Of a stretch of 64,000 nt of DNA, positions 21,458-45,101 are shown piece after piece. This DNA is from Mytilisepta virgata. Its lineage: Eukaryota; Mollusca; Bivalvia; Mytilida; Mytilidae. A model generated the notes under the pieces. The model was not told the origin of the DNA. It made no database searches and was given only the letters and a program-made list of their open reading frames with translations. The position numbers were made by a program, and so were the translations under genes. Within the stretch, counting starts at the first letter, position 1, and the number at the start of each line of letters is the position of its first letter. The stretch lies in contig CM051508.1 of the NCBI GenBank assembly GCA_028015205.1, positions 13,162,001 through 13,226,000 on the forward strand, read 5' to 3'.

Positions 21458-21643
21458 ATGGGAAAAGGCGGGAAACAGGACCAACAAAAAACAGAATTTA
21501 CCTGGGATGAAGTACAATGCCATGACAAAAGAGATGATCGTTGGTTGGTCATAGAAGGCCAGGTCTATAACATAACCAACTGGGCCAGAAAACATCCTGG
21601 TGGTAGTCGAGTTATAGGGCATTATGCCGGCCAAGATGCCACA
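21458..21643 (+). CDS. FADS: Desaturase exon 1: start codon and cytochrome b5 N-half
   Basis: This exon encodes residues 1-62, starting MGKGGK and containing the haem-binding HPGG (46-49). The donor is GCCACA|GTGAGT, phase 0. The HYAGQDAT end joins directly to DAFRAFH of the next exon, the classic b5 continuation. In-frame codons after the donor belong to the intron and are not coding. Confidence 0.95.
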
Positions 21644-24600: not shown

Positions 24601-27600
24601 TTGGGTGACAGTCTGGGTCATCAGACATAATTCCAAAAGAGGACCATCTAAGGACCTTGTTTCAGACAAGAAGATTTTTAAAATTAATTTTCCCATAGGG
24701 TCTTATGTTAAACTAATTTCTACTGTGGCATTCAATAAGTCAAATCAAAGATTTTTATACGGAATAGACTTGAGTACAATTTCTGAAAATTGTTTTCCAT
24801 AAGAATAAAAACTTGGGTTTCGGATTATGGGACTTTATTCATAAAAAAAGGGGGGTTCCAGTTTTCGGACAATAGCTCAAAAACGGTTGGAGCAATTTTC
24901 ATGAAACTATGATGACGTCTTTATATCAATTGACGTAAGCTGCCTTTTGTTTTTTATAAATTTTCGATATGAAATTTCAGAGTTTTGGACCTTTATTCAT
25001 TGAAAAATCGTAGAAAACTGTCAATTTTTCACACTTTGGACAGTTATGGAATTTTCTTCGTTCAAATTTCGGAGTTATGGAACTTTGTTCATTAAAAAAA
25101 GGGGACCCTTTTACATGTCACGCTGTATCTTAAAAGCGCATTGTCTGATTTACTTCAGACTTTACACAGTTGTTTATTGTGATAGTCTAAAGGTCTTTAT
25201 ACCTTTTGATGAAATTTCAGTTTTCTGTTCCAGAGTGGGATATGACTTATTCATCAAAAATAAGGAACAAAATCAAAGGATCTATATGTTAATTGGTGAA
25301 ATTTAATTTTCTGGACGACAGGCGTATCAATCACTCATGGCGCAGCTGTTATTATCAGTGGGGGAAGCTTGAATTTCCAGAGAGCTCCACCAATCTTTCT
25401 TCAACAGGAAAATTGGCTATCCTTGTCAACATTGGTCAACACCTTGCTGCAAGTTTAGTTCAAAGTCATAAACTTAAGGGGCCTCGGTGGCTGAGTGGTC
25501 CAGGTAGTTCGTCATGACTACTAATGATCACTAGCCTGTAAGCACTGAGGTTGTGAGTTCAAATCTCACCTGTGGTGGGGTGTGTTTGACTCCGATCTAA
25601 ATTGACAAGGATTGCCAATTTTCCTACTGAAGGTCGATGGTTCTCTCCGGGTACTCTGGCTTCCTCCACCAATAAAAACTGGCCGCCGCGAAATGGCCAA
25701 AATGTGCTGAAAACGGCGTTAAACCCCGACTAAACAAACAAACAAAAAAATCCTTGAAGACGTCATTATAGTAAAAATCGACTGGATAAGTTTAGATCAT
25801 GAACAAACTGTCTTATATGATAAAGGTTGAGTCCATGTACTTTTAGATTTCGTAGTGGGAGATATTGAGGTCAGTTTCTAATCTTACCTGCACTTAAAGA
25901 AATTATAGATTATTATATGAAATTTAACATATAGGCCTTGTTATGGCCCTGAGATATCCATATCTGATACTAGAGCAAATATCATGTCTTAAACCAGAGT
26001 CATTTCAAAAATGCTTACTAAGTACATGTACAAGAAGTTTTAACAGTGTTTTCTAGAGGCTAATACATGTATACATGTACCACAGTGGTACCACAGTGTT
26101 ACAATTTTTATTCCCCACCTGCAATAGCAGCTGGGCATATAGTGTTTCAGTCTGTGTGTCTGTATCTACATACTGCTTTAGATTAAAGTTTAGATTGAAT
26201 GTAGTTTAAAGGGAAATAGATGTTATATCAACATGAAAATTTGTCATTAAATACCTTAATATCAGATTCTGTTTAAAAAATTAGGTCAAAGAGTTGGTGC
26301 GACCTCAATGTCATACTTCACTGATCATGATGTTTGGAAGCAGGTCACAGTGTCCAAGGCACACATAAGTGTTTACCACTGTATTATAATCCCTTACCAC
26401 TAAGCTATTAATTTTGACCAATGTTTATGTATTTTTAATTTTGATGCAGTGATCCATTCCCGATTTCCGTAGTATATATATATATGTAAAATGATTCGCT
26501 AGATACCTATGTGAATTTTCTACCACAATGCTATTTAAAATTTCTGTTGACAACACTGTAGTAATAGGGATTTGGCTGAGGTTAAAGATCTTTTAAACCT
26601 AGTAACATTATGTATGTACCAGTGGTAGTTCTTTTGCTGATCTTATTTTATTTAGTTTTGGGGGCCTTGGTGGCCAAGTGGTCTAGGTAGTTCGTCATGA
26701 CTACTAGTGATCACTAGCCTGTCAGCGCTGAGGTTGTGAGTTTGAATCTCACCTGTGGCGGGGTGTGTTCGACTCCAATCTGAATTGACAAGGATTGCCA
26801 ATTTTCCTACCGAAGGTCGTGGTTCTCTAAGGGTACTCCAGCTTCCTCCACCAATAAAAACTGGCCGCCTCGAAATAGCCAAATGTGCTGAAAACAGCGT
26901 AAAACCCCAACTAAAAACCAAAAAAAAATTTATTCAGTTTTGTTTTGTCTCCCTACTGTAAAATGTTTATACTTTAAATCCTGTGTCACCTAGATTGTCT
27001 TTTCACCAGCATAAATACTTCTTACTAGCTGTCAGTCTCAACAAACCATATTTCCATTTTGTTTTTGTATCTTTAGTTCTGTTTTATAAACTGAATCATT
27101 TTATTTTGTAGGATGCATTTAGAGCCTTTCACAATGATCTGGAGAGTGTTAAAAAATATTTGAAGCCACTCCATCTAGGGTCAGTTAAAGAAACTAAAAC
27201 ATGTAAAACTCGTACAATAGATGAAGATTTTAGGAAGTTAAGAACAATAGCTGAACAAATGGTAAGAGGGAAAAAATTTTAAAATTCCCATCCCCCTCCC
27301 CCAAATTACAAACAAGAGAAAATGAATGTGATCTAAAATTTAATTATATGATAACTTGTCATGAATTTGGAAAACCAGAATTTACATTGAGTGACAACAC
27401 ATTAATTCCCAAATGCTTATAGCACATGGGTGAATTAATAGTGTTGTTTTTTCACAAGTTCTACACGTAGATGTGGCATTTTCAAATTTCAGGATAAGCT
27501 ACTCTTTTTATTACAATGTCAAAATAAAAAAAATAAAAAATAAAAATAATACGGAATACATGTATGAAGGCTTTGGTGACTAATCATCTGCAAAAACTTT

Positions 27601-30600
27601 GATGACATCTATTTCTATTATGATACATTGTATCACTTTATTTGGTGAAAAAAACAGCTTTCAAAATATAGGATTTTCTTTCAAATTATTTTGACTCCCT
27701 TAATATAATAAAATCTCTTCACAAATAATTTTACAGTTGGAAGTATATACAAATTGTTGTCTTTTTAGTTAATTTCTGTATTATTTTAAGAGAATGCACG
27801 CTTAAAAGTGACACACTTTTTTAGGATCTGTTGAAACCAACTTATAGATATTTTATTGTGTTCTGACTTACTTTGTATCTACACATTTTATAGAAACTGA
27901 AAATTTGATAAAATATCATGATTGTGTGAAAATGAAATTTTGGTACCATTAACAATTAGTAAGTTCGTAAAGGTCAACATCGATAAAAAATTTGGAAATA
28001 AACTATGCACTTTTTTCATTTATGTCACATAGCATTTTGTGATGTCATCAGTTTACCGATGCTGAAAATAAATTCTTCTCTTGGGGGGAGACAGAATCCT
28101 TAAACATATGGTAAAGGGAATAACAGAGTATGATGCATCAAAATAAGTTACTTTATTGGCTCCTTTTTTAATTATTGGTAATTTGTGTTAATTTCCGTTC
28201 ATCCTGATAATATCATTATCGTGGACTAGCACTGAGAATAGAAGTATCATGTCAGTGGCAACGATGACGTCAGTGATGCTGCTATGAATTAACATCATTT
28301 TGCGTTGTTTGCACACATCGACATAATGAATGAAATAATCATAAAATCATTCACAAAACCGCACATCTTAGTGCTACATTTTATTTTTACAAAAATTTCA
28401 GACCTTTACAAATTTGATAAAAATTATTGATAAAAATAATTTGTTTTTGCAGTTTGTTTTCTGATACTGACTTTATCAGGTTTGTCATTTAACACACACT
28501 TCTGGTCGTCCAATAACAAACCTAATAAGTGAGTTTCAAAAAACAAACTGCCGTTTTTTTTTATATGTATAGAAATGTTTTAGATTTTCACAAAATCATA
28601 TTTTAATTTAACACAATTATTATCATTGTTTATTTCAGGGCCTGTTCAAACCAAGCTACACATTTTATGCTGTGTTTTTAGGCCACATAATGTTGTTGGA
28701 GGTGCTAGCCTATCTCACACTGTACTATTTCGGTACAGGATGGTTACCATTTATTATTTCTATTATACTATACTCCACAGTACAGGTAAGCCGCCTATGA
28801 ATAAGCGATTTAAAAAACAGCTAAATATATTTATCAGGCTAATCATAAAAAATTCTCAGATTCTACCAAAATTTGACACACAGGTGAATATTATTTAATC
28901 TCAGAATTTGTACATGTATTATGGCCTAAGAGGTCAAAATTCAGATTTTTGTTTGGTAGGAAATGCTTACCCAGCCAGAGCACCTGATTTCATTTCCGTA
29001 TATACGAGTGTCTTGTTCTGACCTGTGCTTGACCCATGTCTGATTTTAAAAGCAGATTTCACAGCTGTTCTTCATGCTGCTTGTTGAACTTTCTACTAAA
29101 TTTTCAGACTTGGGCTAAAATAAATTAGGAATATTGGTTATTTCATTGTTCCATAATTTCATGAGTTAAGATAGGTTACTTGGCCACACACTGATGATAA
29201 CGCTATTGTTGATTTCCTATACTTGATTTCTTACATTTTCTGGAGAAATATTTTTGATCTTATACATTTGTGTAAAACAAAACTTACAGTCATCAATATG
29301 CCTCCTTGCAATGTTAATCAAAATAACTAAAAAATGCAAGAATACTGCGATTGTTTGAATGAGACAGCAACCAGCCAACCACAGGTCAAGAGGTCTTCAT
29401 GTGACCTTGAACTATGAAGGTCAAAAGAGTTAGTCATGCATCATATCAGTAAAAAAAATTGAAATAATGTTTACATCATTATTGTGAAGAATGGTGCATT
29501 GGGACATGAAATAAAAATGGACAATATTTAACATATTTTAAAGGGACAAGCAAGCTGGCTTCAGCATGACTTCGGCCATTTATCCGTATTCGCTAACACT
29601 CGACTGAACCATCTATTGCATTACTTTACTATGGGATTTATCAAGGTAGAACTGTTGTGTTTAATTTTTTTTTACCACTTCACCAGAGTTACTTCCTCTT
29701 ACATAGGTGGTGCCACCTGCAATGAAATTTAATGCTAGTTTTTTATTGTAAAGTGCTTTGTTGCAATGGATTAAATTTCTTTTGTTGTGAAAATTTTTCA
29801 TAATAAATTTTTTTGGGATATTTTAGATTTTATATATCAGATTTGTTGTTAAGGGAGAAGTCAAAAAGATGTTTAAAAATTCATTTTTCTAAAAAAAAAA
29901 AAAAACCAGGAAAATATTAGATTTGCATTGGGCAAAAAGCACTTTACATTGATGTTTAAGTTATTAATATTAGTGATATATTGTGAGTTCATTTATGGTT
30001 TTTAATTTAACTTTGGTGGGAGAGTTTCAGAAAGGCTTTAAAATAATTTTAGGCTGTGGGTTAAATTTAACTTTACTGACTTGCAGTGACCTTTTATATA
30101 TTATTTAACAATACCCATTTTTCTACTTCTGGTACTTATTTTTACCAAATTTTGAAAGGTCAGACATATACTCAGTCTCTTTTAAAATACAGGTTGGGAG
30201 AGTGATTCTTAATTCAAATTTGATTTATTTCAATTTTAGATTTTCTGCTTTTCTAACCAGCTGATGCATGCCTTATAGAGCTTGTAAATAATCCCTTTTT
30301 TTTTAATTTGTAAATAAGAATCTTTTATTTCTACATCAGTTTTCAACGTTTATGTCAACAGAATTTATTTTTTCATTTTTTTTTCTTCATAAAAATGTAT
30401 TTTTCGTGTAAATGAGATCTGAAATATAATAAAATTAGCAAATTTTATCTCTTAGATATGTAAGTTATCTTTATCTTCAAATACATTCATCAAAAATACA
30501 GTCAAAAATGAAATATGTATAGGTTGTATAGGTTGTTTAGGTTCTAACAGTTGAATTCATTATTTTTAGTTTGATCCAATCAGGATTGTCCATAAAAAAC

Positions 30601-33600
30601 ATATCCCACAATTCATTATGATCTGAAAATTTCAAATTGACATATGAATGAACTCCTTTTATATGATGCTAAAAGATAACTTTTGAACATATAAAAACTT
30701 ATATATTGCAAAACCAATTGTACATAGCTTCCGTTATGTATAAATAACCACAGCCAAAAAAATTCGCTTTGGCACAAAATTATGTATTTGCACAAAAGTG
30801 TATATAAAATTTGTATTTACTGTAGCATTGCAGGTTTGACTAACTTCCTGTCAAGAGGAGATAACTCAGGATTACTAGGTAGAAACAAACCTCTGTATAA
30901 CTTTGTGAAAATTCGGCACTTTTTATTATCTTTTTGCCCATCACTTTGGGTGACATCAGTTGTAGGAAAGATTCCATCTGTTTGATTGTCCTCTCTGTCC
31001 GAAATACTTCTATATAATCATTAACGCAAAAACTATTCATTCAACTTTATTGAAATTTTACATATTTGTTTGAAACACGTAAAAGATGTGCTAAATTTAT
31101 TATTTGTTTTCCATTACATGATTTGCAGTGATTTGAAACTCATCTTTGGAATGATGAATAGATTCAATGTATTGAAGTTATGGATCTCTTTCTTTAGGCA
31201 AATTCAATTTTTGGTTACAACAGGTATGAACCCAAGGTTGGTCAGGTTTTATTTCTGGAAAAAACATTGTAGTGATCATGATTTATATGTTGATAAAATT
31301 TTGTAATGCAGTTTACGGACTCTTCCAAATAATAGGTCTGTCAATAGGAAATGATATATACATGTATAAATTTCAGGTTTCTTATTTGTAAATAAATTTC
31401 TTTGACTCATAACAAGTAGAGGTTCATATTGGATGGGAAACATTTCATGGCATGCTGTATATTATATGTAGTCAATTTGTTGTTGTAAATGCATGCCCTT
31501 AGAGTTAGCCCTTTGTAATTTTTATGTAGTTATACGGTATAGTGGGGGGTATAGTTCGGATCTGAAGTCGTAAGTTCTCAGCGGTATCCTTTATGTTTTA
31601 ATGTTTGCACTTTTTGTAAACAGAGGTTTGTTTTTTACTGGCTGAAGTGCGTATTTTACTTTGTTAATGTAGAGCATGCAATATTTGATACATTGCTAGA
31701 ACTGATGTTGCATTTTTTGTTATAAAAAATTATTTTATATAATTTTGATGCTTTATATACATGTATTTGTATATACTCCCATATATACGTATGTATATTA
31801 TTATTTTTTTCAAATTCTAATTAAAATCGTATATTACACCCACATCTTCATCTGAACCCTCACCCCACACAAATTCAACTTCTTTCCATCAAAAATTATA
31901 AATAATTAGTTATCAGTTGATGAGGTCAAAGTTCAAACCATTCTAAGTTCTACAATTATCAAATTTGCATGCTCAGTTTAGACTAGTTGTGTTAATGTTC
32001 TATGTTAATACCCGATCTTGTTTTTTCAGGCTCAGTGCGGATGGCTACAACATGACTTTGGTCATTTATCGGTATTTCACAACCGTACATGGGACCATTT
32101 TTTTCATTATTTTACGCTAGGATTTATAAAGGTATTTCCAGAACAAAGTATATACTCATTGTCAAAGGTTTTATTATTGGCTACTGATATAAATATCTTT
32201 GATTTGACTGGTTAAAATGTTGTCACATGACATTTGTCATTGCATAACTTCAGCTGTAATATTTCTGTTTAAATTTGTTATCATGATTATGTGGATTCTA
32301 ACCTGTGTTTTTTTTTCTGGGAAGGGGGGGGGGGGTTCATTTTTGTATTCATTTGTGATAACTTTATTTCAGTAATTATTTGGATTTCCAAATTTTAGAA
32401 CTACTGTTGAGAAATAATTTATGGAAATGTGAACATACACTGTATCAAAACAAGTTTAACAGTATGGTAGTGATGAAGCTATCCAAGATAAACCATTTTG
32501 AATTGCCTCAGAGCCTGATTCTGATCCAGTGCTAAATTTTATTATGTAACTGGCCTTTTTACAAGACAAATAAAGGGTGTCAAATTTCTTTTCGATAATC
32601 GTCTAGTATCATGATATCATCTCATGGTATCCTTGTCTTCACTTGCAATGAAAGTATATGTTGTTTTCTGGTTCACAGTTTTTGGGGAAAAGACACGTTT
32701 TCAGCTTTACATTATCATGCAAATCATTTGTAAACATACAGTGTTATTTCAAAATCTTTTGACAAAATAGGATTACAAGGCCTTTTTTTACATTGATTAA
32801 CTTTCAAGCATAATTTCTTGATTTTGAATAGATTTCAGATTGGTTATTTTCAAAAGTTTTTTTGTCCTAAATTCAATTAACACAAAATTTTGTTCCAGTT
32901 TTTAGAATGTTTTCTAGGTAAATATAATTTTTAAATTTTTATACGGCCGCAAATATTTGTGGACATATTATGGTATGAGTCTGTAGTCGACGTCTGTACG
33001 TACATAGTTAGGTTTCTGCTCGTTTACTTTTGTTCCATTGAAGGTATCCTTATAACATTTTACCATAATGGTCCCCCATAAAAAGTGTAGGTTGGAATCC
33101 TGTGGTAGGTCAACATATTTTTTCTATATTTTATGGTTTTTGATGTATAAGAGGTTAAAAGGTCCAAATAGCAATGTTGCTCGATATGTTAATTTATTAT
33201 TTTTCATCGAATTCTTATGGGGATTTTTTCTTTTAATTCATCTTGATGAGTGCTTTCATTGGTATGCTCGTCCTGATAGCACCTGGCTGCCACTGGACGT
33301 TAAACAATTCATCCATCCATCATTGGTATGTAAACAAAATTTTTCATCTTTATTTTTTTCCGAGATACAAGGCGTAAAAGTTAGCAATTTTGGATCAAAC
33401 ATAAAATTTTTATTTTTCAGCCAATTTCAATGGCGATTTTTTTTTTATTTCACTTGGATACGTGCTTTCAGTAGTATGCCTGCTGATTTTTCCTATAATT
33501 TACATTTCTTGAGATATAGGGTGTTAAAGGTGCGAAAAAAACAATGTGGCTGGATTTCTAGAATTTTTCATCTGGTTTTTGTGGTACGTTTGTGTAATGT

Positions 33601-36600
33601 ATATTGTGATATTCAACACATACATGTACATGCTTTAATTGTTTACCTGCCGACATGTTGCAGTCATATCATGCTGCACGTAGCCCTTTATTACAGTTAT
33701 GTCCGATCTTATATTGGAATTATTATTTTTTTCCCATTATTACCAATCATTTGCATGTATTTGTTAATCAATTATTTGATTTTATTCTTTTTGAGAAAGT
33801 TTTGGAAAACATGACTGCTTTTCCTGATGTTCAAACAAATTTTCACCAAGATGATAAAAATTACATTATTTCTGTCAGAGGCCTTCCTGTCAGGCATAAT
33901 ACTATAAGCCTCACCATCGAAAAGTTGGTGGTGTGTTGTAGAATGCCAATAATTTCTATGGGAATATTCTTTTAAATATTGAGTTTTACCAAGTTGTGAC
34001 TCTTTGAACTTTGATATATTTTATCTGGTCATCACAACTCCTCCGATATCCCTTCTCTAGATTTTTAAAGTACTAGCTCGCGAGATAACAGTCCACAGGA
34101 ATATATGTCCCCATCCAAATACATTATTCTGACTCCTAGCTGACTAGTCTTTCTTCATTCTACTTAGTATTGAAGGTCAGCCCAGCAGAAGATCGACCCC
34201 TTGACCTTTCTCACTCGAGGCAAACAAGCTGCCACAAGATAACTGAGATGGTTCATTATATTTTAAAAATGAATCCATTCAGAATATTTTTGATGCATTT
34301 ATTATTGCATCTCATTAAAAAATGTTTTGAGAACTTTGTTGACATTTTGACTAATAGGTATCGAGTGGGGTATAGTAGCACGACATTGGCAATGCGTTCA
34401 TTTTCATTATAGTGCAAAGTATCGTCCAAATACTTTGAGATATCACAGTCTAATTAAAATTAGATCTTCACACTTGCTTCTTGTTTTTTCCGAACTGAAA
34501 CATGTTTTAATTGGTTTATTCACATTATTTTTTGATTGGATGATATGAAATTTAAATAATACATATATGATTATGATTGGATGATATGAAATTTAAATAA
34601 TACATATATGATTATGATTGGATGATATGAAATTTAAATAATACATTAGTCGTATACATTCGTGCTGACCTCTGACTTGACCTTCAATGGGATGTTTCTA
34701 TACAATACATAAAAAAACAACTGAATGAAAAAAGGAGCAAGTGCAGAGATCTAATTATAATTAGATTGTAAAATATTAGGAATTAAGAGATAAACAGTTA
34801 TATATTGGTATCACCTGATTATTATTGTGATAATATGAATTACATATTTGTTGTATTCATTCACGCTTCCATTGTTTTCATGTCTAGATATTAGCACAAA
34901 TTTCCAGATTTCAATAATAAATGTTTTCATTTGACGATATTTTTATGTATAATTTTAAAAATACCGGTAATTGAATGCATATACGTATGTATAAGAATTG
35001 TTATTTCCATACAGGATATGCACACATGCTAATTACAAGTATTGTGAAATGCAAGTTATTTGTATAGCATCTTGCACATACATAAATTTATCATGCATTT
35101 TTATTATATACAAGTTAATTTACTTAAGTGCATAGGAATTGCAAATTCTTTGACTTTTAAATTTAAAAATTTCTCTTGGAAGTTTTGAGATGGAAAAAAA
35201 AAGTTTTTTTGGTACGTCAAAATAATTTGTTGCAATAATTATTATGTTTCAATCCTTTCATCTTTTTTGTCAGATCTGAGATAATAGTCGATGCACTCTA
35301 TAAGATGAATGATATATTTAACTTTTTTTCCTGCAGGGAGCCTCTCCAAATTGGTGGAATCACATGCATTATCAACATCATGCAAAACCTAACGTGGTAA
35401 GTCTTAGTTTAGTATATAAAATTTGTTTGTCGGAACATTTATGATATAGGGCATATATTTCCTAGGTGTGTTCGTATTGCTTTTGTCACATGACCATTTG
35501 GTATTTAAACTGGTGTTTGTGATTTTCGGTATCGAGTCTCGTTATAGCCTGTGTCAGGTTTATTAAAGTACATCTAATCGAGGGTATGAACTGAAACTTA
35601 GTATTGATTTGTAATTATAAAATAAAGGTTATAGCTAGTACCATTCCTATACAAGGCTTTTAGTTGTTTATGTGCCTTAGAATATAATTGTTTTATATTC
35701 GTACGAACATAGTGAGGGAGAATATAAGTTTGTATTCAAATACTATAACAGCTTAAAAGTGGAGATAAAATTTATAGTTATCTCCCCTTACCAGGTTTTA
35801 TGATTCTGTTCTAATTTGGAAAATTGCCAAGCAGCAAAATATTCCTTCAAACAGGAAAATTGAATCTAAATTATTTTAAAAATTTGTATGTCAATGAGGG
35901 AAAACTCTCAGACAGACTATTATATTTTAGAATAGTAACCATTCTTTTGAGTAAAAAATTTTAGTTCAGAGAAAACTCAGTTCTGACAACCAGTATTCTA
36001 TAATTAGCGAAAAAGTGTACATAAATTTGTACTGCAAATTAGCCTGATAATTTGTTATTTTCTGAAAACAATTAAAATTCATAAAAAACTAGTAAAATAA
36101 AAGCAAAAAAATACTCTTTGACAAGATGATTCTTTCTGAAATCTGAAAAATTTGATGACAGAATGATACTGATGGTTTATTATAATATGCTAATTTTATA
36201 TGCTTTTAATCAATACCATTTTCAACACAGATGTTGTGAGTCTGAACCAAGCTTCCGAGGATGTCAAACTATGTTTCTGAAGGCTAGTGTATTTGTTCAT
36301 AAAACAAAGCCACCATCATATTCCCAGATTTTTGATAAAAGGGTGTAAAGCCCTAATTAAAAAATTCCAATGTTCACCAAGTTTAAAAGAATTCTTGCAT
36401 TAAATTTTCTTTTAACAAATCTGAAGTTTGGGTAAAGTCTAATTAATTGGTTCAACAATACAAATTCAAAATTATTGCAGATGGACAAAGATCCTGACGT
36501 AAGAGTAGAAAAATTGTTTGTTGTCGGAGAGGTCATGCCTGTAGAGGTAAGTTTAATCCCAAACATAGTGGACAGAATTATAATTCAGTTACCAATAAAT

Positions 36601-39600
36601 TTTGATCTCTAAGTGACTGAGTACAAGTAGTCTTGTTAGTCTGTTAAACTGCTAATGAACATTACTCTGTCAATGGTGTCACTGGTGAGAGTGTCCAAAA
36701 CGAATCTTAATTGACAAGAATTTGCTCAAGATCGTGGTTCTCTATGGGTACTCTTGCTTCCTCCATCAATAAAATCTGGCTGCTACGATAAAGTTAATTT
36801 TTCTGAAAGTGACTTCAGTCCCATTAAAAATAAATAACCCATACAAATCTTATTTTTAACTTGATGTCCAAATAAAAAAATCTGTTTATTACATTGAGTG
36901 TGGTGAAATACCTGGACTTCCGAGTGAAATCAAATTCGATAATTCACCCAGTGAAATTTCAAGTCACATTTCACTCAATAACGTAAAAATAGCTGTTGCC
37001 AAAGACATTGCTATACAAAGGCTGATGCGTAGTCACAAAAAAACATAATCCTTTGTATTTTCTAATGAATACATGGAATCTTTAAATTCGAATACCAAAA
37101 ATCTACAACTCGTGACAGAAAAACACTAATTTAGAGTTTGGGTAACCCCACCACTGTTCAATGGTGCGTGAAATTGGTTTTATTCAAACCATTCCAGTTC
37201 GAGAAATCGAGATTTGATTGTACAGTGCTTTTGAAGTTTGGTGACAATTACTGAGGTCTTTACGCATAGAACATACGTTAAACCATTGGTTGTGGTCTAT
37301 ATACCTCAGTTTGAATCCATGAAAAGTTGAACACCATAAATAAATGTCACATTTTATATTATTGTATTTGCTTTGTTTATTGTAGGTTGCGAAATCCAGC
37401 AAAGAAAAGACAGTCCCATTCAATCAACAACATAAGTATTTCTTTATAAGTAAGTATATGTATAGACAATAATGGACTTCATATATAAAAATTGTAAAAG
37501 AATAACACTAGTAAAAATACAAGGAACCAGAAAAAAGTATACAGAGGTTAATTTTACATACTTTGTTCATGAGAGGGACTTTTTCACTTTGCCTATATAG
37601 AAGTGCCCTTAAAAGCCTGTTTGACTTTATTAATGTGAGTTTAAATTTTTGTGATGCTCATCCCTCATCCGGTTGCTATCTTTGCATTACTAAAAACATT
37701 GCATTGATTCATGAATTTTAGGAAATTAAACTTTAACAAGCTGGAACCAGAATTTCAAGACTACTATGGTTCTATTTACCCATGTCTCTAACTAATTTCA
37801 TACTGCCTTTTGAGTTTAAGACGCCTCAATATGGCTCAATATCACCAGGACAGCATTAAACACCATTCAATCAATCGATCAAGATCAAGAAATCAAGGTT
37901 CTACTGTACATTTATAACTACAAATCTTTGACATTTGATACTGAGAATCTGAATGTAAGGATATGGGGTATGCATCAGTGATATAATATCCCATAAGACT
38001 CTATAAGGAAAAAGATTGATTGTTTCTATGGGTGACCATGTGTCCTTCAACAGAGCAATATCCCACACCACAGGACAAGGTTAGCACAGAATGGCTCCAG
38101 AAACACTTTTCAAAAATAAAACAAGAGTAATCAGAAATCCCAAATAATAATACCTAGACAGTGACTGAAAATATAAAGCTTATACTGTCTTGAAACCTCA
38201 CTTCTTGGAATGGATTTTTGGCATTTTAAAAGTCTGCAAAACCACCATTTGAAATATTTTTCATGCTCTTTTTACATATTTGGTGCAACAAGTAATTGAA
38301 GAAAATCTCATGAGAAGAGTTATCTCCCTTTGGTATTAAAAATTCCATAGGCAAAAAGTTTTCATTTCTCTGGAAAACCTGATCGATAAAAATCATCAAT
38401 TGTATTATCTACAACTTAACTAATTGCATCTGTCATCCAAGTGAAAAGACAATGCCAATTGATTATCGTACTCAGACTATGAAAATCTGTTCATAGATTG
38501 AGGTTTACAGACAATGATGTGATATTCTCTTGTTTTTTAGTTGGTCCACCAATGTTGTTCCCGATATATTTCCAGTTTATGCTATTTAGACATGTTTATA
38601 CTAGAAGACTTTGGTTGGTAAGTACATGTATTACAGAAAGCATATACAATCAAACTTATATTTAATAAATTTTTTGCGGTCTGTTAGGATTTTTCATTAC
38701 TTCAGTAAAGTGAGAAACATGAACTAGTTATCTCCCTTAAATTATCCAGGGGATATAATAAAAAAAAAGGTGTTAAGTAATCTCACTTTAACCCTCAGGG
38801 CCAAAGGACAATTATAATTATCTCCCTTGGCAATTTGGTTTAAGGGAGGTAACTGACTAATGTTTTTCTTTGGTATATTGTGGTGGCAATATGTATTGAG
38901 GCAAAAGGCAGGAGTAGCTAGACAGAACGTCAGAACTTTGGCAAGAAAACTGACAATCATTTTCAGTAGCTGTTGAACTTATTTATGGTTTTTATACCCC
39001 CCGCAAACAAAGTTTGGGGTGGTGTATAGGAATCAGCCTGTCCCGTCCCACAGTCTCTCAAACATGCCTTATCAGAGGCTAATGAAACTTTGCATACTGT
39101 TAGATCCTTGTACGTAGATGTGTTCATGTGAAGTATGTACTGGTCAAATACTTTTTCCCATAAATTTATACCCTTTTGGACTTAGAAATTCTGTCTATCC
39201 CCCAATTTTTTTGTACCCACAGTTTCTTAATCATGCCTTATCAGAAGTTAATGAAACTTTTCATACTGTTAGATCCAAGTACGTAGATGTGCACATGCAA
39301 AGTATGTCCTGGTCCAATACTTTTTCCATAATTTTGTATGAGTACTTCTTGTTTAATATAAGTTTGGTTTTTGGTCTTCCAAATGTTTCGGTTTTAATGC
39401 TGCTGATGAGAGGTAACTCCTTGAAATGCGTCTTATACAGCATAGTATAAATTTACTATATCTAATATTAGTATCTTTGGATTGTTATTTTGAAACTCCT
39501 GGGATGATGTATCTGCATGGTGGACCCTAGGTCCCCGAGGGTATTCGCCAACCCAGTGGTCAGTCTTGTCCGACATGATTATTCATTGATTTTGTTACAG

Positions 39601-42600
39601 AAATTACCAGTATTTAGAAAAATTCAAAAATAATAGAAATACTAAGGGTTCATTCCTTGTATTGCACATGGTAGATCTCCTTAACTGAAATTTGGCTTCC
39701 TATTTCGGTTTTGGTTATGAGTACTTCTTGTTTAATATAAGTTTGGTTTTTGGTCTTCCAAATGTTTCGGTTTTAATGCTCCTGATGAGAGGTAAATCCT
39801 TGAAATGGGTCGTATACAGCATAGTATAAATTTACTATATCTAGTATTAGTATCTTTAGATTGTTATTTTTTTTTATACCCTTTTGGACTTAGAAATTCT
39901 GTCTATCCCCCAATTTTTTTGTACCCGCCGTTTCTCAAACATGCCTTATCAGAGGTTAATGAAACTTTGCATACTGTTAGATCCTAGTACGTAGATGTGT
40001 GCATGTGAAGTATGTCCTGGTCCAATACTTTTTTCCATAATTTTATACCCTTTTGAACTTAGAAATTCTGTCTATCCCCCAATTTTTTTTGTACCCACAG
40101 TTTCTCAAACATGCCTCATCAGAGGTTAATGAAACTTTGCATACTGTTAGATCCTAGTACGAAGATGTGTGCTTGCGAGGTATGTCCTGGTCCAATACTT
40201 TTTTCCATAATTTTATACCCTTTTGAACTTAGAAATTCTGTCTATCTTCCAATTTTTTTTGTACCCACAGTTTCTCAAACATGCCTTATCAGAGGTTAAT
40301 GAAACTTTGCATACTGTTAGATCCTAGTACGTAGATGTGCGCATGCATAGTTTGTTTTGGTCCAATACTTTTCCAATAATTTTATACCCTTTTGTTCCCT
40401 CAGTTATACCCAGTTGGACTTAGAAATAGTGAGACAATTCAACATGATAAGGATGCTCTAGTCCATTAAATTAACAGCAGCAGAGGGTACAGTTAGTGAG
40501 GTCCCCTCACAGTTCTAGTTCTTATGGATTTTGCTTGCAATACATTGCACTCCATATTGCACGTTTTCAAATAATTTAGTGTCTGTTCTGCAGTGGAAAC
40601 ACTACAAAAAATAAGGAAAGAGGTCCAACTAAGTATAAAGGTAGGCCAATTTCCTTCAAAAGCAAATTCTAATTTGCATAGGTAAACTCTATAGATATAG
40701 CATTTGCCTTGAAATTGAATTTCCAATAAATCAAATCTACAGGATTGACTGCAAGCAGATGTATTGTTTTGAACACGTCACCTTGAGTTAGATTCAAACT
40801 TACAACTCTACTGACAATAACCTACTTAGATCACTTTGTCCCCAAGGCTCCGAAAAGTACATTAAACATTCCCTGAACTTTTTACAAAGAATTGATAGTC
40901 TTTGTAACGGTAGAAAAAAAAGTAATGGTTGAGATTTTTAAAAAAAATTTTAATTTTAAAAATAAATTTACCCATTTTTATTGTAGGATGCAGCAATAAT
41001 GGCCATATATTTCTTTAAATTCTTCTTCTTCCTTGTTCCAATGGTAGGATGGGGATGGGCTCTTTTCTACTATGAAGCATTCAGGTAAGTGATACATACT
41101 GGTAGTTAAGGACTGGTCGAGAATTTTTATTTTAGGAAGGGGGATGCATTCCTTAAGGGTTTATTTTAGGGATTTTTTATGTTTTATGCTGATAGTTTTG
41201 GATATCGTATAAATGAAACATCTTATGCTGAAAGTTTGGTAATGAGTTGTAGAATTTTGGTATTCAAATTTCCAGATGAGTTATTCTGTTTGATGAATTG
41301 ACAAATTTTAGACGTATGAGATGACAATATATATTCTTATATGACGTCCTTATATCGTCAAATGATATACTAACCGATATATCCACCTCTACCACACGCG
41401 TGGTTTTATATAAATGCGAATTGTTTGAACTTTAAAAAGAAAAATCATCTTTGTTTATCTTTACAAAAATAACCACAATAGTTGTGTACAACAACAATTA
41501 TGATAATGTTGTACACTGCAATACACATTTACTTAGGCAGTGCCATCTTGATTTTTGAACAACATGACATTTACCGTGGTAAGTCTGTGAAACGTGTTTT
41601 ATTAATTTTTCTCGTGTAAATGATGAATTACATAGTTTGACTGTGCAAATGTTTTTCTTATGAAATAAAGTTTTATTCAAAATATGCTCTTGAAAGGACA
41701 GAATACAACATATTAATCACAAGAGAAATGGAAAGGCCAATACAATGTTAGATATATATAGGACGACTCAAATGAGCAAAATTAGTGTATTTGTCCTATT
41801 AGAATATAAACAATTCATGGTTGTTATAGATTTGAAGTCATTTACACATGGAATGGGCCTTTATATTCATATTTTATACCTCTCATACACTCGGTATAAA
41901 ATATCCGAATATAAATGCTCAGCCCGTGTGTAAATGACTATAACTCTATAACCCCCATGAATTATTTCGTAAGTAACAACCCTGACAAGAGCTATTATGT
42001 CAGATGACTTTTTTTCTTCACTAGTGAATAATCAGATTTTATTTCACTTGGAAATCATGTTATATGTATTTTGATTATTTCATTGCTGTAATATTCATGA
42101 TATGACTAAATTTTTATTCTAGAGTAGGTGAGTCACTATGGTTTACATGGGTTAGCCAGTCTAACCATATACCGATGAATATTGACCACGATGATGCTAA
42201 ACCTTGGTTAAAACTTCAGATGGCAGCAACTTGTGACGTGGAGAAATCGTTCTTTAATGACTGGTTTACTGGACATCTTAACTTCCAGATAGAGCACCAG
42301 TAAGTATTTATACAAATACATTTTAGCTCACCTGGCCTATATGGCTTGTTGTCATACTTTTTTTCATAAACTTTCCTTTATAGATTTTTTCCTCTGAAAA
42401 ACCAGGCCAATTGGGACCAAACTTTGTTGGAATGTTCCTTACCCTATTTTTGGATGTTTTCAGAGTAGTTTCCCATTAATAAAACTTCTCTGCAAAAAAT
42501 TACTTTTTTACATTTTATGCATTTTTTTAAACTTAAAATAAAGCCAAGACTCTAATTTAAATAATGAAACCAAAAAACAATCACAAATCAATATCTAGAA

Positions 42601-45101
42601 CTTATAAATAGAGGGAATTCCATACCTATGACATAATATATTTAGGGAAAAACCACTTGAATTTTATATGAAAATGTTGTTTGCATTCTGAAACTACATG
42701 GTCTGATTGAACCAAATTTGGCAGCAATGGTCCTTAGATGGTCCTCTGTCAGAATTGATCCAGAATGTAAACCTAGATGGCTGCCACACGTATTACTTTC
42801 CAGTTGCGACGGCGGCATAAACTTTTGTAAAACTTTGATAACTTTGCACATGTAATATCTACAATTATGATTTATGGTCCACAAGGTAGCTTCTTGTACA
42901 AGGTTTGCCGCAGTATACTTGTCTTGTGTCCCTGACCTCATTTTCAGGTTCACTGACTTCATAAACATGAATTTAAAATATGCGTCCAGGTTTCGTGGTT
43001 AAATCCATTTCTCAGCAACTGTAATACCTATGCCAACCATATTTGGTCTATAGATAGTTCTTAGTGGGTACATGCAAGTCTGACACCTGGCTTGGGACCC
43101 TGACCTCAATTTCATGCGCGAATGACTTTGTCACTTTTTCATGGTTAAGTCCATTTCTCAGAAACTGTAATACCTAGACCCACCTTATTCAGGTCTGGTC
43201 GAACTCGCAAACGCGAGTATATCTGAACGGTGAACTGAAACTCGCTTTTGCGAGTATGATGTCGTCAATTTACTTGCAAATGCGAGTTTCTTCACCTGGT
43301 TGTATATTCTTTCACCTGTAATGCAAACGCGTAATCCGTCATACCTGTAAATTAGGATATGTATTCTTTATACCTTTTTGAACATTTCTACCGAGCAGAT
43401 TCAAAATCTACCATGCAATTATGGAGAAATTGAAGGTCAAAGTTGACCAGAATTTGAGTTATCTTTTGGACGTTTTTGGCATAGATAAACACATATTTCA
43501 TCTATTTTTGTGACTTAATCTTACATAAAAGGACATTATTTCTGTTGAACAAGGTAGGGAAAGAATTTTTTTATTCAAATTGACTTTTTTATGACTTGTT
43601 AACCTTTATTTTAAGAAAATACATGTTTATAACCGGAACTCATTTCTGCATATGAAACTAAAGATGATCAAAATGTTCAGTAGTTCTTTAGTTGGTTTTT
43701 ATTTATTATTTTTATTATATAACAATTATTGAAGATATATTTACCAATATTATGCATTTCTGTTGTGATTTTTGTATATTTGCAAAATATATGAAACTGT
43801 GGTGAGATACTATTCTAGCCTCAGCACTGGAGATTTCATCAAAAACATTGAATGCTGGGAAAGAAACTAGCTTTTGAGTGTGTAATCAGTTTTGGGAGTC
43901 TGACACCTGCCTTTTGACCTTGATCTCAATTTCATGCTTGAGTTGCCTGCATCACATTTTCGTGGTTAAGTCCATTACTCAGAAACGAGAATACCTAGAC
44001 CCACCATATTTGGTCAATAGATAGTTCTTTGTGGGTACATGTTAGTCTGACACCTGGCTTGGGACCGTGATCTCAATTTCATGCTTGAGTGACTTTGTCT
44101 TTTTTTGTGGTTCAGTCCATTTCTCAGAAACTGTAATATCTAGGCCAACCATATTTGGTCTATATATAGTTCTTGGTGGGTACATGCCAGTCTGACACCT
44201 GGTTTGAGTCCTTGTCCTCAATTTCATCTTTGAGCGACTTTGTAACTTTTTCATGGTTAATTCCATTTCTCAGAAACTGTAATACCAAGACCCACTGTAT
44301 TTGGTCTATTGATAGTTCTTGGTGGATACATGCCAGTCTGACACCTGTCTCAGGACTTTGACGTCAATTGCATGCTTGAGTGACTGTCAGATTTTCAAGA
44401 TTAGGTCCATTTGTCAGCAACTTTAATACCTAGACCTACCATATTTGGTCAATAGATAGTTCTTAGTGGATACATGTTGGTATGACACCTGCCTTTTGAT
44501 CTTGACCTAAATTTCTTTTGCAAAATGTCTGGTATCAGATAATCATTATTCTGTGTCCATGAGCATACTCAGGTGAGACATGTTTTGTGTCCACTCTTGT
44601 TTCATTGTGGCCTAATCACCCCTGCAGGCCAAAATTAGCATCCAGTTAAAAATAATCCATTATACAGTATTTAAGAATATTTGTTTATTTTCAGCCTGTT
44701 CCCGACTATGCCTAGACACAATCTATACAAGATCCAGCCATTAGTCAAATCCCTCTGTAAGAAGCATGGTATACCCTTTGAGGTGAAATCTCTATGGAGA
44801 TCATTTGCTGACATAGTTAAGTAAGTAGTTCAAAGGGAATTATGGGTAAATTTGTATTGTGGGTAATAATGTGTTAAGTGACAGAAAGATTAATAAATTA
44901 AAGTTCAACATCTGATTTGAAAAATTTATAGATTTAAAGTCTATGAGAATGATTTAATTTGAGTTCATTAACTAATTTATATAGTTTACTGTATAAAAAA
45001 AAGACAGATGGTGCTAAAAAGGTTTATTTTTGTATCTTAGGAGTCTGAAGCACTCTGGTGAACTATGGGATGCAGCGTACCATGCCCACCACATGTCATA
45101 A
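21458..45101 (+). CDS. FADS: Front-end fatty acyl desaturase (delta-5/delta-6 type), 12 coding exons plus one alternative exon
   Basis: This gene encodes a membrane desaturase that inserts a double bond between an existing one and the carboxyl end of polyunsaturated acyl-CoAs, taking electrons through its own cytochrome b5 domain at the endoplasmic reticulum. Joined exons are 21458-21643, 27112-27261, 28639-28785, 29544-29645 (or 32030-32131), 35337-35396, 36481-36546, 37386-37449, 38541-38617, 40987-41084, 42123-42299, 44695-44820 and 45041-45101. They give 437 residues, the usual family length, with every junction GT..AG and in frame. Cytochrome b5 covers about residues 12-90, with HPGG at 46-49 and likely haem ligands H46 and H69. 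The histidine boxes are HDFGH (169-173), HYQHH (206-210) and QIEHH (372-376). The Q in QIEHH is typical of front-end desaturases. Hydrophobic membrane segments lie in exons 3, 8 and 9. The ATG is the first in an open frame that begins just upstream. Regioselectivity cannot be read from sequence alone. Confidence 0.96.
25478..25750 (+). mobile_element. SINE-B, full length, in desaturase intron 1
   Basis: A tRNA-derived head (A box TGGCTGAGTGG, B box GAGTTCAAATC) is followed by a body with CCACCAATAAAAACTGGCCG and a tail ACTAAACAAACAAACAAAAA. It is about 270 bp. Confidence 0.85.
26661..26928 (+). mobile_element. SINE-B, second full-length copy in intron 1
   Basis: It matches the copy at 25478-25750 closely from GGCCTTGGTGGCCAAGTGG through CACCAATAAAAACTGGCCGC to an A-rich tail, in the same orientation and 1.18 kb downstream. 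Confidence 0.85.
27112..27261 (+). CDS. FADS: Desaturase exon 2: cytochrome b5 C-half
   Basis: This exon encodes residues 63-112. It opens DAFRAFH, which supplies the second haem ligand H69, and closes with a basic linker leading to the desaturase domain. The acceptor is TTTTGTAG and the donor ATG|GTAAGA, phase 0 at both ends. Confidence 0.95.
27262..28638 (+). other. Desaturase intron 2
   Basis: AT-rich intron with no recognisable repeat family or alternative exon. Confidence 0.8.
28639..28785 (+). CDS. FADS: Desaturase exon 3: first membrane segments
   Basis: This exon encodes residues 113-161. It starts [10 protein letters not shown] and contains two hydrophobic stretches around [11 protein letters not shown] and [10 protein letters not shown]. 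The acceptor is TTTATTTCAG and the donor ACAG|GTAAGC, phase 0 at both ends. It splices equally well in frame to either copy of the next exon. Confidence 0.95.
29544..29645 (+). CDS. FADS: Desaturase exon 4a: first histidine box, variant A
   Basis: This exon encodes 34 residues (162-195) with [12 protein letters not shown], the first histidine box that ligates the di-iron centre. Phase is 0 at both ends. The acceptor (ACATATTTTAAAG|G) has a poor pyrimidine tract and the donor is AAG|GTAGAA, so its splice sites look weaker than those of exon 4b. After the box the residues read [18 protein letters not shown]. Confidence 0.9.
29646..32029 (+). other. Intron between the two alternative exons 4a and 4b
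   Basis: This 2384-nt AT-rich intron separates the duplicated exons. It is too long for splice-site crowding to enforce exclusive choice. I saw no further HDFGH-coding copy in it, and no obvious long inverted repeat. Confidence 0.75.
32030..32131 (+). CDS. FADS: Desaturase exon 4b: first histidine box, variant B (alternative exon)
   Basis: This is a second 102-nt, phase 0-0 exon with the same [12 protein letters not shown] core. It begins AQCGW, closer to the AQAGW common in animal front-end desaturases, and continues [18 protein letters not shown]. The acceptor is a strong CTTGTTTTTTCAG and the donor AAG|GTATTT. Comparing codon by codon, 23 of 34 residues and about 70 of 102 bases match exon 4a. 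Normal use would be in place of 4a. Including both would add 34 residues without a frameshift. Confidence 0.88.
33230..33325 (+). mobile_element. SINE-like tail with CCATCCATC end
   Basis: CTCGTCCTGATAGCACCTGG and GGACGTTAAACAATTCATCC resemble the sequence at 54560-54626. A related GGACAGCATTAAACACCATT tail is at about 37845-37880. These are 3' ends of a third SINE-like family. Confidence 0.45.
34447..34768. mobile_element. Foldback element enclosing a minisatellite
   Basis: Ends 34447-34490 and 34727-34768 are inverted repeats (TCTAATTAAAATTAGATC and TCTAATTATAATTAGATC, ACACTTGCTTCTTG pairing with GGAGCAAGTGCAG). The interior holds a 41-bp tandem repeat. This design resembles bivalve elements with short terminal repeats and a tandem-repeat core. 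Confidence 0.65.
34534..34646. repeat. 41-bp minisatellite, ~2.8 copies
   Basis: GATTGGATGATATGAAATTT starts at 34534, 34575 and 34616, with almost no differences between units. Confidence 0.9.
35337..35396 (+). CDS. FADS: Desaturase exon 5: second histidine box
   Basis: This exon encodes residues 196-215, [20 protein letters not shown], with the HYQHH box at 206-210. The acceptor is TTTTCCTGCAG and the donor GTG|GTAAGT, phase 0 at both ends. Confidence 0.95.
36481..36546 (+). CDS. FADS: Desaturase exon 6
   Basis: This exon encodes residues 216-237, starting [17 protein letters not shown], the conserved segment after the second histidine box. The acceptor is ATTATTGCAG and the donor GAG|GTAAGT, phase 0. 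Confidence 0.93.
36680..36835 (+). mobile_element. Degenerate SINE-B body
   Basis: It retains TTAATTGACAAGAATTTGC, GATCGTGGTTCTCTATGGGT and CTTCCTCCATCAATAAAATC with many changes. It lies in the desaturase intron between exons 6 and 7, without the tRNA head. Confidence 0.6.
37386..37449 (+). CDS. FADS: Desaturase exon 7
   Basis: This 64-nt exon encodes [20 protein letters not shown] plus part of the next isoleucine, leaving phase 1. The acceptor is TTTATTGTAG and the donor ATAA|GTAAGT. The split codon is completed by exon 8. Confidence 0.92.
38541..38617 (+). CDS. FADS: Desaturase exon 8: membrane segment
   Basis: This 77-nt exon encodes [20 protein letters not shown] and following residues, a typical desaturase membrane segment. 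The acceptor is TGTTTTTTAG and the donor TTG|GTAAGT. It restores phase 0. Confidence 0.93.
38720..38856. repeat. GGGAGATAA-family repeat copy in desaturase intron 8
   Basis: It contains TTATCTCCCTT, an AATTATAATTATCTCCCTT half-palindrome, then GGCAATTTGGTTTAAGGGAG. It is the same module order as the copies near 1.7 and 49.8 kb. Confidence 0.6.
39054..40420. repeat. 170-bp tandem array split by a 379-bp-spaced duplication
   Basis: TTTCTCAAACATGCCTTATC-type unit starts lie at 39054, 39223, 39931, 40101 and 40271. Between the second and third units, a 150-bp segment starting TGAGTACTTCTTGTTTAATA occurs twice (about 39338 and 39717). The array lies wholly inside desaturase intron 8. Confidence 0.85.
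40987..41084 (+). CDS. FADS: Desaturase exon 9: membrane segment
   Basis: This 98-nt exon encodes a very hydrophobic, phenylalanine-rich helix ([20 protein letters not shown]) and ends in phase 2. The acceptor is TTTATTGTAG and the donor TTCAG|GTAAGT. Confidence 0.93.
41811..41963. repeat. Imperfect long hairpin in desaturase intron 9
   Basis: Arms of about 70 bases (41811-41880 and 41893-41963) pair with some mismatches. Shared words include AATTCATGG, TTATAGA, GTCATTTACACA and ATATTTTATAC. Confidence 0.65.
42123..42299 (+). CDS. FADS: Desaturase exon 10: start of third histidine box
   Basis: This 177-nt exon encodes residues 318-375, including [10 protein letters not shown] and [16 protein letters not shown]. 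The last histidine of QIEHH is split across the junction with exon 11. The acceptor is TTTATTCTAG and the donor CACCA|GTAAGT. Confidence 0.95.
42640..44590. repeat. ~145-bp tandem array in desaturase intron 10, interrupted by an insertion
   Basis: TCCATTTCTCAGAAACTGTA-type words recur at 43004, 43150, 43971, 44116, 44262 and 44406, about 145 bases apart, with CTAGACCCACCATATTTGGT in between. The gap between 43190 and about 43900 is filled by another dispersed element. Confidence 0.8.
43190..43719 (+). mobile_element. Hairpin-rich dispersed element, copy 1 (~530 bp)
   Basis: It begins CAGGTCTGGTC. Three stem-loops follow with stem ACTCGC/GCGAGT and different loops: AAAC at 43203-43218, TTTT at 43240-43255, and AAAT at 43272-43287 with one wobble. 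The rest is AT-rich and matches 56726-57191 throughout. It interrupts the 145-bp array. Confidence 0.7.
44695..44820 (+). CDS. FADS: Desaturase exon 11: completes QIEHH
   Basis: This exon completes H376 and continues [20 protein letters not shown], the hallmark sequence that follows the third box. The acceptor is TTATTTTCAG and the donor GTTAA|GTAAGT, phase 2. Confidence 0.95.
45041..45101 (+). CDS. FADS: Desaturase exon 12: C terminus and stop
   Basis: This exon completes K418 and encodes [19 protein letters not shown] followed by TAA at 45099-45101. The acceptor is TGTATCTTAG. Confidence 0.94.

Follow-up and report, generated by a model that had tools for sequence, protein, structure and literature searches.

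Can one fatty acyl desaturase gene make two different enzymes? The position and substrate choice of front-end desaturases are usually put down to the duplication of whole genes. A different route is suggested by a 64,000-nucleotide stretch of the genome of the bivalve Mytilisepta virgata (GenBank assembly GCA_028015205.1, contig CM051508.1, positions 13,162,001 to 13,226,000 of the forward strand; hereafter the window), in which a desaturase gene carries two homologous versions of its fourth coding exon, here called 4a and 4b, each encoding the first histidine box. Judged from sequence, 4a and 4b are very probably an alternatively spliced and essentially mutually exclusive exon pair in a Delta5-clade gene, derived from an ancient duplication of exon 4. 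Because related molluscs, to judge by their sequences, use either one exon or the other, this one gene can probably make two different enzymes.

The gene is a complete front-end (cytochrome b5) fatty acyl desaturase gene on the + strand, from 21458 to 45101. Each transcript has 12 coding exons in one open frame of 437 residues, which ends in TAA and has no internal stop in either isoform, and every intron of the assembled gene is bounded by GT..AG. In the 4b isoform, Pfam recognizes Cyt-b5 (PF00173) at 84.7 bits against a cut-off of 23.7, and FA_desaturase (PF00487) at 122.6 bits against a cut-off of 29.7. As expected of a front-end desaturase, HPGG is found in exon 1 within the N-terminal cytochrome b5 domain, and all three histidine boxes are present: HDFGH in both 4a and 4b, HYQHH in exon 5, and QIEHH across the junction of exons 10 and 11. 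Among the best 120 of 1870 relatives in a protein search, identity is 66-78% to Mytilus proteins, 83% to P0003, and 65% to P0021 and P0023, which are enzymes named Delta5. The twelve-exon structure is a trait of mollusc Fad clade A (the Delta5 clade), an assignment made by exon count only; in two species, clade A Fad genes have 12 exons and clade B genes 10-11, according to the available text of that study (PMC4550275). The best reading is a predicted Delta5-clade front-end desaturase of a bivalve, with its closest named relatives in Mytilus. Its parts are the following.

21458..21643, + strand: FADS coding exon 1 (ATG, cytochrome b5 domain, HPGG); Pfam Cyt-b5 84.7 bits
27112..27261, + strand: FADS coding exon 2; spliced model, tblastn
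28639..28785, + strand: FADS coding exon 3, constitutive upstream neighbour, donor CAG/GTAAGC (the slash marks the splice point); spliced model, tblastn
29544..29645, + strand: alternative exon 4a, 102 nucleotides, phase 0/0, HDFGH; weak acceptor AAAG/G, donor AAG/GTAGAA
29646..32029, + strand: intron between 4a and 4b, 2384 nucleotides
32030..32131, + strand: alternative exon 4b, 102 nucleotides, phase 0/0, HDFGH; acceptor TTTTTTCAG, weak donor AAG/GTATTT
35337..35396, + strand: FADS coding exon 5 (second histidine box HYQHH), constitutive downstream neighbour; spliced model, tblastn
36481..36546, + strand: FADS coding exon 6
37386..37449, + strand: FADS coding exon 7
38541..38617, + strand: FADS coding exon 8
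40987..41084, + strand: FADS coding exon 9
42123..42299, + strand: FADS coding exon 10 (start of third histidine box QIEHH)
44695..44820, + strand: FADS coding exon 11 (QIEHH finished across the junction)
45041..45101, + strand: FADS coding exon 12 and stop codon

A preliminary description of this DNA had proposed that 4a and 4b are duplicated exons of old origin, apparently used in a mutually exclusive way. Translation and scripted comparison reproduce every number checked and the other points tested: both exon positions, 34 codons each, phase 0 at both ends, AG/GT borders, identity at 23/34 residues and 70/102 bases, and differences at exactly residues 162, 164, 165, 178, 180-183, 185, 186 and 191. 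The two are thus adjacent homologous exons of equal length (102/102 nucleotides) and equal phase. When the spliced protein is compared with the window by tblastn, the exon-4 sites are matched at E 7e-18 and 1e-20 by their own isoform and at E 1e-11 and 2e-11 by the other isoform, and every exon other than exon 4 matches once. In a panel of 61 exon-4 peptides, all 61 match both sites (worst E 1e-8), the best match elsewhere in the window being E 0.017; a third copy of exon 4 was found in the window neither by tblastn nor with the panel. Two overlapping or interleaved genes, or an artefact of assembly, could also place two such exons side by side. This explanation is scarcely credible in view of the single occurrence of all other exons within the window, and the copies differ at 32/102 bases and have their own Mytilus-type counterparts, which is unlike an assembly error.

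How old is the duplication? Base differences between the copies are distributed 9/6/17 over the three codon positions, with third positions contributing 17/32. Nonsynonymous divergence (dN) is 0.23, and synonymous divergence (dS) is not calculable, the synonymous change being too high. DNA similarity is restricted to the exon: the alignment covers 93 bases, starting at exon base 13 and running 3 bases beyond its end, and the intron flanks of 4a and 4b are not alignable. Both the extent of synonymous change and the narrow reach of the DNA similarity mark the duplication as old. The duplicated exon itself appears ancestral, because exon 4 of fish FADS1-3 is also 102 bp in the available account (PMC10240347).

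That both copies have been held by selection, as the preliminary description suggested, is independently supported by their relationships: each is nearer to a Mytilus-type counterpart than to its partner. Exon 4a shares 28/34 residues with P0004 (Mytilus trossulus isoform X2) and 27/34 with P0007 (a Mytilus coruscus gene model), and 4b shares 33/34 with P0003 and 30/34 with P0123. These figures bear on the proposal that 4b alone is functional and 4a is falling into decay or disuse, or that the roles are the other way round. The AAG acceptor of 4a is unique in the gene and its donor is poor; 4b holds the residues that are commoner in the family, Gly165 (121/171) and Trp182 (79/172); and segments resembling 4b are found in P0006 (Mytilus galloprovincialis), P0008 and P0013, all of which would suit an unused 4a. 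Nevertheless, 4a has no stop or frameshift, its match to exon 4 of P0004 is slightly above the overall 78% identity to that protein, and an exon of the 4a type is present in the Mytilus coruscus gene model as well, so that we consider loss of either copy from use to be very improbable.

The use of one or the other exon is indicated mainly by related proteins. These were collected by the full-protein search mentioned above and by two region searches, one per exon (67 and 77 listed), and 176 relative proteins longer than 200 residues were aligned with the two window isoforms. The apparent mutual exclusivity of the preliminary description finds support here in isoform-like protein pairs that differ exactly over exon 4. 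For example, isoforms X1 (P0042) and X2 (P0044) of Biomphalaria glabrata, whose entries give contigs of equal length, are identical at 410/410 residues outside exon 4 and at 17/34 inside. Similarly, the 4a-like P0007 and the 4b-like P0123 (245 residues) share 97.9% of the 191 residues compared beyond exon 4 and 68% of those within it; the four differences outside are the last four compared residues, at the end of P0123. The contig that encodes P0123 is no longer than 1081 nucleotides, so this sequence is evidently spliced. Between Magallana gigas X2 and Saccostrea X1, identity falls from 91% outside exon 4 to 65% inside, and of all 34-residue stretches in the whole protein the one that diverges most is exon 4, starting at residues 161/162.

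As a control, we took all pairs that are at least 90% identical outside exon 4 and for which the comparison covered no fewer than 180 residues there and 32 inside it. Six of these 47 pairs are less than 80% identical inside exon 4. They are the two window isoforms, the two Biomphalaria isoforms, P0123 paired with either of two Mytilus proteins, and P0011 paired with either of two oyster proteins; since P0123 and P0011 are each shared by two pairs, these amount to four separate cases. Among the remaining 41, one oyster pair is 85% identical inside exon 4 and the other 40 at least 94%. The best reading of these comparisons is that the exon pair is conserved at least between the window gene and Mytilus, and that it recurs in oysters and in a snail. 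As a separate observation, P0006 and P0015 (both Mytilus galloprovincialis), P0008 and P0013 are other desaturases with 4b-like exon-4 segments, and in three of these four the residue preceding the box is changed, giving AHDFGH or SHDFGH in place of QHDFGH.

The relatives also bear on the possibility that most transcripts contain 4a and 4b in series, as a tandem duplication that lengthens the protein by 34 residues. Double inclusion would keep the frame and give a protein of 471 residues with no internal stop. Against this, in none of the 176 relatives do two first boxes follow each other in series: the box occurs once in 171, not at all in 4 and twice in one, and in that one (P0005, a goby protein of 740 residues) the two boxes lie 308 residues apart, as in a head-to-tail fusion. 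In addition, exon 4 is nearly constant in length across the family (33-37 residues in 61 sequences). In-series inclusion as the rule is accordingly very unlikely.

The splice sites of the two alternative exons stand apart from the rest of the gene. Constitutive donors read GTRAG in 10/10 cases, and those of 4a and 4b read GTAGA and GTATT; acceptors read YAG in 11/12, the sole exception being the AAG of 4a. That the weak sites fall precisely on the alternative pair accords with regulated inclusion. Simple enforcing devices, which are not needed by every mutually exclusive exon pair, are absent from this one: there is no short intron, no mixture of spliceosome sites and no frameshift at the exon 4 pair, and inspection by eye revealed no U12-like donor there, the sites being GT-AG.

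What would the swap change in the protein? The two isoforms of the window gene differ at 11 residues, and HDFGH is the same in both. In an AlphaFold model of P0003, a 4b-type protein (75-sequence alignment, mean predicted local distance difference test score 89.8; window numbering is that of P0003 plus 3), helices 144-169 and 177-192 flank the first box with His166 and His170. Window positions 162, 164 and 165 lie 7, 5 and 4 residues ahead of the first metal-binding histidine in a transmembrane helix of the model, where helix geometry would put 162 and 165 on one face. The other eight variable positions belong to the helix running from box 1 towards box 2 or lie just ahead of it. As modelled, the swap would exchange part of the active site, and this placement suits a changed substrate fit; altered substrate choice through the exon 4 swap, which the preliminary description also suggested, is plausible. 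Two Delta5-clade enzymes of the cold-seep bivalve Gigantidas haimaensis, one acting on polyunsaturated substrates and the other on 18:1n-7, as the available text of that report has it (PMC13299295), show the kind of difference that exon 4 could make.

Several observations weigh against a strict switch of this kind. P0010 (Mytilus galloprovincialis X4), P0038 (Crassostrea virginica X3), and P0032 and P0037 (both Magallana gigas) lack exactly exon 4, and because of these four representatives selection is not strictly one of two in the database entries; they reflect either in-frame skipping, by which the first histidine box is lost and the protein is presumably left inactive, or annotation by-products of a two-exon locus. 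The mosaic pattern is weaker for the gastropod-like P0039, in which exon 4 is the lowest segment against P0043 and ties with the N-terminus against P0042, and the lowest-identity stretch between P0003 and P0004 is at residue 127, in exon 3. Each relative stands for a cluster formed at 90% identity, in which minor isoforms, double inclusion among them, can go unseen. Moreover, the two-exon locus is seen as DNA in the window only and is deduced from protein pairs in the relatives, and the P0007 gene model itself lacks exon 5. At the level of the gene, the 2384-nucleotide intron between 4a and 4b is too long for steric exclusion, and the 102-nucleotide length is divisible by 3, so the frame does not force exclusivity. 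Nor was a convincing looping RNA duplex found in the window introns: the best duplex flanking 4b was reached by 5/60 shuffles, and the best of each of two other intron pairs by 31/60. At the level of the enzyme, Ser or Ala occurs at 165 in 47/171 relatives, salmonid Fads2 entries included, and the position preference of fish Fads2 has been tied to Y277, which by its number is outside exon 4, in the available text of that study (PMC7501227). Because distance, frame and site type do not enforce exclusivity, and no convincing duplex was found, it probably depends on regulators.

Taken as a mutually exclusive pair, 4a and 4b lead to a simple mechanism. The fourth coding exon of the desaturase gene would have been duplicated long ago, and transcripts would now run from exon 3 through either 4a or 4b to exon 5; the two products would be enzymes of 437 residues with 11 differences between them. 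Regulation may act through the weak splice sites together with trans-acting factors, and the switch may leave basic catalysis alone and change the range of acyl chains taken, such as polyunsaturated as against monounsaturated acyl-CoA in Delta5 desaturation. Non-methylene-interrupted fatty acids are typical of molluscs. A wider and rather doubtful proposal, which we put forward tentatively, is that this is a conserved mollusc splice switch pre-dating the split of bivalves and gastropods, by which one Delta5 desaturase would be retuned between polyunsaturated substrates that yield arachidonic acid (ARA) and eicosapentaenoic acid (EPA) and monounsaturated substrates that yield non-methylene-interrupted fatty acids; part of the reported lineage-specific "duplications" of mollusc Fad genes would then be two spliced forms of one gene.

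In human FADS1 and primate FADS2/FADS3, the known variants arise by skipping, truncation or alternative starts and are not known to exchange a catalytic exon. They are alike to the present case in being alternative transcripts of the same gene family, as far as the available text goes (PMC4728637). A closer parallel is coq-2 of helminths, annelids and molluscs, in which one of two homologous exons, 6a or 6e, is used and the enzyme core is changed, so that the exon used alters the choice of product; the enzyme there is a polyprenyltransferase, and the effect of the exons there was shown by exon deletions in C. elegans, whereas the desaturase pair is known from sequence alone (PMC7434440). The oyster alternative oxidase forms CvAOXA and CvAOXB likewise are equal-length isoforms of a bivalve membrane di-iron enzyme, made through a duplicated exon 10 (41 residues with 15 differences in C. 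virginica). That is a terminal exon, however, which has a stop codon of its own and uses an alternative 3' splice site; desaturase exon 4 is internal, symmetric and frame-preserving (PMC5589949).

Mollusc clade A (Delta5) desaturases share with the window gene the cytochrome b5 fusion, three histidine boxes and 12 exons, but their diversification has been put down to gene duplication, and the available portions of these reports describe no duplicated exon 4 (PMC4550275, PMC13299295, PMC10970445). For example, within the 12-exon clade Surm et al. listed C. gigas 2 and 3 (both 433 residues) and A. californica 3 and 4 (XP_005090573; XP_005090577 "isoform X5") as genes duplicated recently (PMC4550275), and a later genome survey gave C. 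gigas one gene each with 1, 10 and 12 exons (PMC11677070). Going by these published listings, each of the two pairs may be isoforms of one gene. We found no prior report of a mutually exclusive desaturase exon in the literature searched, with subscription journals mostly outside its scope.

Further features were noted in the window. Within the desaturase gene, intron 8 contains a tandem array at 39872-40394 (170-nucleotide unit, 3.1 copies) and intron 10 another at 43897-44515 (145-nucleotide unit, 4.3 copies). The intron 3' of exon 4b holds a 252-codon open stretch on the + strand (33056-33811), long for DNA of 32% guanine plus cytosine, in which Pfam gave no match up to E 0.1. Two tRNA-like short interspersed repeat copies, at about 25478-25740 and about 26660-26930, were recognized by eye from the B-box-like GTTCAAATC/GTTTGAATC; ARAGORN found no tRNA in the window. 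On the - strand, a 671-codon open stretch at 10523-12535 matches the Tau/MAP tubulin-binding repeat of Pfam at 25.7 bits, under the cut-off of 27, and is perhaps part of a microtubule-associated protein gene.

For the desaturase family, natural enzyme pairs with 11 differences here and 17 in Biomphalaria, all within 34 residues round the first histidine box, are suited to locating the determinants of substrate choice. Mollusc Fad gene counts made from transcripts may take isoforms for paralogues, and a cloned "Delta5" enzyme may stand for only one of two products. If the proposed switch is true, the fatty acid products of a desaturase gene would be changeable in the animal through splicing.

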